A stretch of DNA of 64,000 nt from Trileptium ribeirensis (Eukaryota; Nematoda; Enoplea; Enoplida; Thoracostomopsidae). The notes below the pieces were generated by a model that saw only the letters and a list, made by a program, of their open reading frames with translations, searched no databases and had not been told where the DNA came from. The DNA lies in the NCBI GenBank assembly GCA_030248225.1, contig JASANE010020102.1, positions 1 to 64,000 on the forward strand, given 5' to 3'. A program made the position numbers and the translations under genes. Shown here piece by piece: positions 44,106-47,572 of the stretch. Position 1 is the stretch's first letter; each line of letters starts with the position of its first letter.

Positions 44106-45899
44106 TCATATTGCCCATGTACCGTTACAATAGATGTTTTGTCTTTGGTTTCTGGAACTAATTCTAGTGCCAGAACCCTTGTTTAGATCTAAACTAGACA
44201 TTAGTTTGGTATTTCGGAGGCATCCTAAAATATCATCTATTCTAGGCAATGGATATGCGTTTTGCTCTGCCACCGTGTTCACCTTCCGAAAGTCCACGCA
44301 GAGTCGGAGTGAGCCGTCGCTCTTGGTCACATATACTATCGGTGATCCCCAAGGTGAACTTGATGGTGATATTAGTCCCACATCTAGCATACTATTGAGT
44401 TCCTCTCTAAACGGTTCGCGTAAGGAATGTGCTAATCGATACGGTGCTTGCTTAATTGGCTTGGCATCTCCGGTCTCTATGCGGTGCCTATGTTCTGTGT
44501 AGCGTCCTAAATCGAAATCGTGCGTGCTGAACACGTCCGCGTTCTCGGCAATTGCGGTTTTCAATTGTTTCAGCTCAAACGGCGACAATAGGGTCTTATC
44601 AAAATCTATCTTACTCAAGACAGTTTGAGCTCTTTCATGGTCAATTAACCTTTTTGCTGCCTCTATGTGTTGGATGATCCTTTCAGGGTGTGCAGTAATG
44701 TTATTCAATTGCTTAGCAGGTTTGTGCTCCTCATACCGGATCAAATTTTTGTTTGTGTCCTTCAAGAACTGCACGTTGGGGTTCATCATTACCTCAATGT
44801 GGCCTATCGTTTGTCCGGCATAGATGGTGACCGGCGTGTTTCCGAAGTTAATTACTGCGATTGGTATGGTTTTTTGACTTCTTAACACTAATGCATGTGC
44901 CATTGCGATGTCAACCATTTCTGGTGCGGGCACAAATAGTGCCGGTCTTACGCCTGTTTCAGCTATTTCGGGAATCGCATTAATGAACGTTTCGGTGGTT
45001 GGTTCTATTGTAGTGAGCTTCCGACACATTACTGCAATTAGTGGTGGGTCGTAACGCTCTAAACCGGAAAAAGGTATCTTGGCCTCTTCCTCATCTACTG
45101 CTATCTCTAAGCAACGTTCCTTAAAATTTATGATGCACTTTGGCAGTTGGGACATGAAGTTTGTTCCTATGATGCAGTGATAAGGTTCTGTTTTAGTGAC
45201 AAAGAATTCTGTTTGTACCTTTATGGACCCGATCGACAAAGGTACACTTATGCTGCCGTCTAATGCTAATTCCTGTTTGGTGGCAGATACTATCCTAGTG
45301 GAATCGTCAGGTTGTGGCCGGAGGCCCAATTTACTTACCAAGTATTGTGATACGATGGAAACATCTGCCCCTGTGTCTATTAGCGTCAGTACTGGCGTGC
45401 GGTATACGAAAGCATTGATGAGTAAGGGTGCGTCCATATGATGTATCGCGTTGAGCTGTCGGTGGTAGGCTACTGTCCGGTGTCCCCTACGTTGGGATCG
45501 CTCAGATACCGCGAATAATTCAGTAGGCTCTACTAGGACGACACTTTCGTCTTCGTTGGTAGCGTTTATTCGAGCTGAGCGACGAGGGCTCGTTGTACGT
45601 AATTCGATATGTTCTGTGGAAGCAGCTGGAGCTGAAACCGTTGGTCGGGGCGTGTTTGCGGTGCCATACTCATTGTCCGTCTTAACATGCAATTCGGATC
45701 GCCTTAGTTCCTCCCGTCCACATGGTCGTTGTTGCCACCAGCGCTGCAGGCGTCCCTTTATACATTTAGGACAGAATCCAGCTTTCTTCCTAAAGTATAT
45801 TTTTGCTCCTATTCCGGCAATTACTAGCACAATGAGCATCCATAAGTAAGGGGCTACGCCAATGGTAGTGATGTATGGGAAGTCGATTACCTTCTTCAA
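44106..45899 (-). pseudogene. Env membrane anchor fused in frame to protease and RT N-half
   Basis: 597 codons. Residues ~16-36 form a hydrophobic membrane span (APYLWMLIVLVIAGIG..) followed by basic residues and CPKC (43-46), a plausible cytoplasmic tail. A ~110-residue linker leads to a retroviral-type aspartic protease with active-site DTGAD at 175-179. RT starts near residue 450 (GLISPSSSPWGSPIVYV, LRLCVDFRKVN) and runs to LDLN, where a frameshift breaks it. The upstream glycoprotein frame (to 45960) is in the same phase, separated by one TGA. So env and pol appear to be one reading frame in the order env-PR-RT. This is the opposite of the usual retroviral order. Confidence 0.85.
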
Positions 45900-45959
45900 C
45901 TGCTCGTCGGCTATTTGTTGGACTTGTAGGTTCGTCGCTTTGGCGTGTTCTAATGAGCT

Positions 45960-46745
45960 TCAAGCGATCGGTTTAAGCGGTATGTCCGGAAAGTCATGGA
46001 CAGTGATGTTGGGTCCAATATGGATTGTGATTTCCTGCGCGTCTAGTGTGCTAGCCAGCATAAGTGGCCCGACCACGAGCTGGGTATAGTTGTTGTGTGA
46101 CAGCCACAAAACTCCATTGTCAGCGATATCAATCGTTTCTCCTCGGGTAACGTGGCTAAGGTGTTTCTTTCTGGAGACGACGGCCTTACGTTCCGCAGCT
46201 CGGATTAAGACTCCTTGGGCTGTGGTGTAGACGTCGGTATGATTTGCCATTGGCCCGACCAATGCACTGTTCTTGCAGAGTTGACGAGCTTCGTCAGGAG
46301 CGTCCTCGTCCATGATAATCCTGTCCAAACAGCGCGATGTGTGGTCCGTTGCTAATGCGTGTATTTCGCAGAATGCAATACCTGGTCGCGCATTGCAGGC
46401 GTGTAGTTCAAGCACTTCGTACCGCGCTCGTTCTATCCGTGTAGCGTAATCAGGCAACGGTAATTTCATGTGGGCGCTGCGTTCTGGGACGTTCCAGCCG
46501 ACGTTGTATATGCGAAAGTAGGGTCGGACGTCGTCCGACGTGACTAATGGAACCCGCAGTATGAAAGCAAATTTAAATGAGCCTAGATCGATGTGCACTG
46601 GATAAATTTGTCCAAATTGGTATGCCAGTGCAGGTTCGCGTATTAGAATGGTCTGCGCTATCCGCGAGTCCTTCTGGAATAAGTTCTTGAGCGTGGATGC
46701 GTCTACTACCTTAGGTGATAATTGACCGCTCATCATGGCTTCCAT
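45960..46745 (-). pseudogene. Env-like glycoprotein, ectodomain second part
   Basis: 261 codons that continue the glycoprotein after a frame break at about 46733-46745. Cys residues (HACNARPGIAFC, SRCLDR, LCKN) and several N-x-S/T sites suggest an extracellular domain. It ends at a TGA (45960-45962), and the same frame then continues into the membrane anchor. No family assignment was possible from sequence alone. The role is inferred from the fusion peptide before it and the anchor after it. Confidence 0.65.
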
Positions 46746-47572
46746 AACGGCGTCAACCGGTGATCGAAGGCTGGTGCGAAAATGTGGTTTACTAGCTCGC
46801 GGTGAACCTCAGTAACATAGCGTTGCTCCTGGCACCTTACCTGGTCGATCATAGTGACTACTTCCTGCATCTCATGATGTAAAAATGAGTATAACTCCTC
46901 GTTAGCGTGCGTTAATTTCATGATCGCTCGCGAATTACCGTAAGCAACATTATATGTGGTCCTCATTTCTTTAGATAACGCTAGCACCTGCTTATTTAAG
47001 TCCTTAAGGTGTACTGCGTTGGTGAACGCTACACCGACACCTAAAAATCCTGTTACTACGCCTGCGGCTCCAGCTAATGCAGCGAGAAATCGTTTCTTTC
47101 TAACCTTAGGTTCCTCACAAAGATGAAAATTCGCGTCGCAATACTCGCGCATTAATGCCATATAATAGCTAGTATCTAATACGCCTTGGTACGTACTTCT
47201 TAATTCTCTTTCTACTTCTTGCACTTTCTGTTGTAAATCCGGCATGGTAGCACAATTGGGGTTGGGACAGCAATACCCCAAACATGGTTTGCCCCGAGGG
47301 GTGTATACACACCACGCCATACCGGTTGCCCGCCGACTAGGTTGTAGCCCATCTAGGGATAGTCTTAAAATTATTGGTAAAAAGGTAGACTGTGAGGCAG
47401 TTATTACCAAGCCTTGTGGTTCGATCAGCGTGCCTACTTGTTGATTTACCATGGCTCCTAAGCGTGCGTCCTGGTGCGAGAATGGTGTAGCTATTGCGTG
47501 AACTTGCCCTAAGTGGTGGAGGATCAGTAGAATCATTAGTGTTCCCATCAATTTGGTTCCTTTGTTTAGCAA
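46733..47572 (-). pseudogene. Env-like fusion glycoprotein, N-terminal part
   Basis: 279 codons. A signal peptide occupies residues 1-26 (MLNKGTKLMGTLMILLILHH..). A short Cys-rich region follows (Cys at about 88, 97, 101, 102, 107). A furin-type site RKKR (158-161) is followed at once by an Ala/Gly-rich hydrophobic stretch FLAALAGAAGVVTGFLGVGV like a class I fusion peptide, then a heptad-repeat helix (~190-250). This is the plan of a class I viral fusion protein. The frame breaks at its end, so the copy is dead. It lies directly upstream of pol and downstream of MAN. Confidence 0.78.

Follow-up and report, generated by a model that had tools for sequence, protein, structure and literature searches.

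The window (the whole analysed stretch of 64,000 nucleotides from Trileptium ribeirensis) carries, on its minus strand, a dead copy of a Ty3/gypsy-type element in which a predicted envelope gene (env) lies upstream of pol. The explanation we favour is that the predicted membrane anchor of this envelope and the aspartic protease are encoded in one open reading frame and that the order of genes in the family was likely gag-X-MAN-env-PR-RT-RH-IN. Taken as a whole, we hold this explanation to be somewhat probable.

It is favoured by the order and frames of the genes, the stop-free frame from the anchor to the protease, the overlap of gag and X in one copy and the linkage of X and MAN in a third copy. 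The constraint on X, the lack of a zinc knuckle or repeat at the joint between anchor and protease, and the precedent of the Burro elements point in the same direction. It is weakened by the fact that env and protease are joined in a single copy, with neither a full-length copy nor a pair of long terminal repeats (LTRs) established, and by the rearranged locus, a mosaic-looking pol and an env without homology support. Moreover, three matches to the frame show no fusion of anchor and protease, and a Met codon before the protease permits a separate Pol.

Gene order and decay of the minus-strand copy

Read 5' to 3', the minus strand shows the order X-MAN-env-PR-RT-RH-IN from ~50.6 to 41.9 kb (Table 1). 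An X-MAN-env-pol order had been claimed in an earlier note on this DNA, and it is present in the minus-strand copy, with matching frames and coordinates. The note had also described the ectodomain and the anchor/pol part as sharing one phase, split by a single TGA, which was borne out (both are in frame -3). Its statement that env is in frame with protease-RT holds for the second half of the ectodomain and for the anchor. It does not hold for the half with the signal and the fusion peptide, as this piece is in frame -1 and is separated from env piece 2 by one frameshift. The frame shared by anchor, tail and protease is real as well, with a length of 617 codons instead of the 597 given before.

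Table 1. Features of the element copies in the window, in order of position
Feature	Position	Strand	Details
gag, plus-strand copy	37716-39218	+	broken pieces; one CCHC zinc knuckle in piece 38409-38882
X, plus-strand copy	39115-41895	+	two same-frame pieces with one stop between them; overlaps end of gag; family sequence stops near 41876
Integrase, zinc-binding and core domains	41875-42600	-	PF17921, PF00665; 3' end missing
RT remainder, RNase H, C-rich spacer	42740-44182	-	frame shifted relative to preceding piece; PF00078, PF17919, PF17917
617-codon open frame	44109-45959	-	anchor, basic tail, aspartic protease, N-terminal part of RT
Aspartic protease	45147-45398	-	DTGAD at 45377; PF13975, E 1.2e-9, 39.1 bits vs cut-off of 28.2
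First Met codon after anchor	45435-45437	-	13 codons before protease match; possible start of a separate Pol
Predicted membrane anchor	45786-45863	-	hydropathy 2.24 over 19 residues
TGA between ectodomain and anchor	45960-45962	-	same phase on both sides
env piece 2, predicted ectodomain	45963-46808	-	frame -3; four Cys, three N-glycosylation-type motifs
env piece 1	46736-47572	-	frame -1; first Met 47548; signal-like start, Cys-bearing part, furin-type site, fusion-peptide-like stretch
Hydrophobic fusion-peptide-like stretch	47030-47089	-	Gly/Ala-rich, directly after RKKR; Kyte-Doolittle 1.96 over 19 residues
RKKR furin-type site	47090-47101	-	within env piece 1
MAN, small acidic ORF	47613-48047	-	Met 48023; 30 D+E vs 11 K+R
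X, minus-strand copy	48140-50599	-	pieces 50395-50240, 50238-48889 and 48682-48143
Third copy, decayed: C-terminal part of X, then MAN	55199-55883	+	tblastn 5.7e-13 and 3.5e-7

The minus-strand copy is dead. A frameshift and a TGA interrupt env, another frameshift interrupts RT, and a stop together with a change of frame interrupts the RH-IN part. The integrase is truncated near 41876, where it abuts an inverted second copy on the plus strand. Both of these copies are truncated, and the self-comparison of the window revealed no direct LTR pair.

The series PR-RT-RH-IN has Ty3-type sequence according to its Pfam and PDB matches, as in Ty3/gypsy elements (Metaviridae). For the RT-RNase H part, the top named PDB match was Ty3-G (chain 7q5b, E 2.5e-55), followed by the next named polyprotein at 3.1e-34 and by the remaining chains at 1.3e-22 or weaker. 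The spacer between RH and IN is compositionally odd, with 45% C at third positions.

The envelope-like gene and its joint with the protease

The order of a class I fusion glycoprotein is complete in the predictions (signal, furin-type site, fusion peptide and anchor), with the pieces lying in two frames. These four features and the Cys-bearing ectodomain were all predicted where the earlier note had placed them. When env piece 1 was shuffled 20,000 times, a furin-type site with a hydrophobic 20-mer directly behind it arose in 35 cases. In the six-frame segments of the window with at least 40 aa (50,079 residues), this combination was found at two places, env piece 1 included. Basic residues directly follow the predicted anchor, which would fit a cytosolic tail.

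Searches with env in Pfam, NCBIfam and PDB, and with piece 1 in the protein collection, gave no significant relative. When piece 1 was compared with 5.8 billion proteins, 2,671 candidates were scored and none reached E ≤0.001; piece 2 had no match in PDB up to E 10. The single-sequence structure models (pLDDT of 37.7 for piece 1 and 34.8 for piece 2) were too poor for a fold search. As sequence homology to a known fusion protein was not found, the envelope call is based on architecture, and from this architecture the gene is predicted to be a class I-type envelope. Its product may be a fusogen.

Over the 477-nt interval from anchor to protease, the sense frame is free of stops, while each of the other five frames contains 3 to 11. 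None of 2,000 mononucleotide shuffles of this interval was open. Third-position base composition shows no clear break at the joint. The joint itself occurs in one copy in the window. In a wider search with the 617-aa frame, at least three matches were found among 7,996 scored candidates, and a fusion of anchor and protease was seen in none of these three. The best match, P0001, begins 15 residues before its DTG.

The order of genes might be real and Pol nevertheless be translated separately, from the Met at 45437, through splicing of the message or through reinitiation. In that case, the shared frame would be no more than a long tail of Env that overlaps the start of pol. Such a start would agree with the position of this Met codon, the first one after the anchor and close to the protease match. 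However, the frame from the anchor to this Met is open for more than 110 codons. We consider a separate Pol possible, but somewhat unlikely.

A serious rival explanation is a chimera that arose once, at this locus, from two elements. Deletion or recombination would have attached the protease-pol part of one element to the 3' end of another that carried env, and the common frame would be luck. The shared frame had been taken earlier as the reason why a chance fusion is unlikely. This was too strong: by simple arithmetic, one third of random joins of coding pieces are in phase, and hence the shared frame alone is a weak argument. A chimera would also agree with the rearrangement of the locus, in which several copies are present, and with the discordant relatedness of RT-RH and IN to the protein P0004.

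P0004 comes from a 4,643-bp JGI metagenome contig and begins within the N-terminal RT region. It is 69.7% identical to the window in RT-RH (330 residues) and 26.0% identical in IN. Long matches to both domains were found for 16 of 123 proteins, which made 136 pairs including the window. The pair ranked above window and P0004 was 85.3% identical in RT-RH and 83.4% in IN, while two pairs ranked below had 60.6 and 59.9% in RT-RH and 46.9 and 48.8% in IN. The IN of the window was 25 to 35% identical to that of all 16 proteins. P0004 and P0019 were likewise discordant (53.2 and 23.6%). The discordance with P0004 suggests that recombination acted on the lineage of the window or on that of P0004, and the pol of one or the other is likely recombinant.

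Several observations argue against the chimera. The interval between anchor and protease contains neither a zinc knuckle nor a sequence repeated elsewhere in the window. In the plus-strand copy, gag is followed by X and not by the protease. Finally, the same design has been published for Burro (PMC6431247). Overall, we regard a chimera as rather unlikely.

Further copies and the probable order of genes in the family

The minus-strand copy ends at 50599 and contains no gag. Upstream gag with a zinc knuckle, as in Ty3/gypsy elements, was found in the plus-strand copy only. The knuckle matched PF00098 just above the threshold (E 3.4e-4, 21.0 bits against a cut-off of 20.8), and this gag had no other Pfam match.

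X of the plus copy (39550-41876) and X of the minus copy (50599-48240) share 82.9% identity over 2,381 columns. In the C-terminal part, dN/dS between the minus and the plus copy was 0.15 over 147 codons, which suggests that X functioned as a protein, under selection, during the active period of the family. This part (48143-48682) contains a CxxC...C pattern under strong constraint and had no family match above the cut-off. MAN had no family match in database scans. Short TTAGG-like runs were seen by eye between MAN and env (47590-47640).

In the third copy, a decayed relative of MAN (55725-55880) is linked to X. Further downstream on the plus strand (55884-57502), no match to env or pol was found up to E 5.

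The family order was combined across copies: gag-X was taken from the plus copy, X-MAN-env-PR-RT-RH-IN from the minus copy and X-MAN from the third copy. Because gag and X are adjacent in the plus copy and the X genes of the two copies are 83% identical, the order gag-X-MAN-env-PR-RT-RH-IN is likely for the family, as judged from the assembled gene arrangements. In an intact element, gag would be first.

Relation to known elements and possible meaning

According to the ICTV profile of the Metaviridae, env is located downstream of the integrase (PMC7879559). The present element shares with the errantiviruses and other canonical env-bearing Metaviridae a Ty3/gypsy-type protease, RT, RNase H and integrase, and a predicted Env with surface and membrane-anchored parts; the difference is that their env follows the integrase, whereas here it lies upstream of the protease (PMC7879559). 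Env downstream of the integrase was not found in our copy, in which the region past the integrase is cut off. TelKA from bdelloid rotifers is also an LTR retrotransposon with an env-like ORF of the class I fusion type. In TelKA, however, this ORF is ORF3 and comes after pol, and its detectable homology to the paramyxovirus F protein has no counterpart detected here (PMC5408684).

An env before pol had been thought unprecedented in Ty3/Gypsy elements. This is refuted by the planarian Burro elements (GYPSM1), which are giant LTR retrotransposons of a Gypsy-like type (PMC6431247). The description of Burro gives an env that lies between gag and PR, in frame, called the first such case, a single ORF of 4,873 aa and an internal length of up to 25 kb (PMC6431247). 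Hence, the present element is not the first of its kind. Burro was the sole exception with env before pol found among open-licence papers, and others may exist outside these.

Burro and the present element were compared by the published description. In both, gag and extra sequence come first, then an env-like region and then PR-RT-RH-IN of the Ty3/gypsy type. As in Burro, env is in frame before PR for the anchor and env piece 2, while piece 1 is frameshifted. Unlike in the described Burro elements, X and MAN each form an ORF of their own in which no domain was recognised, stops lie between MAN and env, and the distance from gag to IN is ~10.5 kb summed over two copies. The motifs listed for Burro include AIR1, Smc, MATH, BIR, ankyrin, BCL2 and others, and a dUTPase-like domain lies between its PR and RT (PMC6431247). 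In the pieces that we scanned, no Pfam match was found for MATH, BIR, ankyrin, BCL2, SUMO-like or retrotrans_gag domains. The PR-RT interval gave a sub-threshold dUTPase-like match (PF04797, E 0.12, 11.6 bits against a cut-off of 27).

The element could be a member of the Burro group that descends from a common ancestor with env before PR and whose extra domains were lost, diverged or are unrecognised; this would be compatible with our preferred explanation. The described order of blocks (gag, extra region, env, PR, RT-RH-IN) is the same in both and the PF04797 match lies at the position of Burro's dUTPase-like domain, but the lack of matches to the domains named above, the single matched knuckle instead of two or three and the split of MAN from env in place of one long ORF make such membership quite unlikely.

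Under the explanation that we prefer, with anchor and protease in one frame, Env and Pol may have been made as one precursor. Cleavage at the furin-type site would release the fusion peptide. With a type I anchor, PR-RT-RH-IN would face the cytosol, the side of Gag assembly, and Pol would be detached by the protease, which lies between the anchor and RT. X and MAN would have accessory roles. We put forward, very tentatively and as a rather doubtful proposal, that the Pol of this lineage is synthesised as the tail of a membrane-inserted Env, on the cytosolic side, that Env and not Gag packages Pol, and that Pol is released by its own protease.

Pol enters the particle as a Gag-Pol fusion or, in foamy viruses, as a separate Pol. 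If the proposal is true, an Env-Pol precursor would be a third route, used by a lineage whose ORFs are split, in contrast to those of Burro. A second design with env before pol, with the anchor fused to the protease, would mean that this order is not peculiar to a single group of giant planarian elements, and it would make the coupling of Env and Pol testable. How retroelements acquire and place envelopes bears on how retrotransposons become infectious.

Scans of viral contigs (queries env piece 1, X2, RT-RH, P0004 and the PR-RT frame) and of bacterial and archaeal genome contigs (queries P0004 and env piece 1) yielded no confirmed relative; with such single-sequence queries, close relatives only were detectable. 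Phage records gave no match, and the window had neither Rfam nor tRNA hits. The Pfam names LuxC, Lebercilin, DUF7101 and Herpes_ORF11 appeared below the cut-off and were rejected as assignments.

Apart from the element copies, the window contains further repeats. Long inverted repeat arms (53749-55037 and 57502-58824, 74% identical) lie around the decayed X-MAN copy, with more distant matches outward of them, to 52777 and 60303. A 2.2-kb block is present twice (29542-31767 and 51398-53616, 96.6% identical), and an inverted fragment of it was found at 35691-35966. Moreover, there are five tandem repeats (1688-1965, 12710-13115, 15311-16074, 18259-18871 and 6386-6885), for which the offsets in the self-comparison suggest periods of ~20, 21, 150, 22 and 246 bp, respectively.
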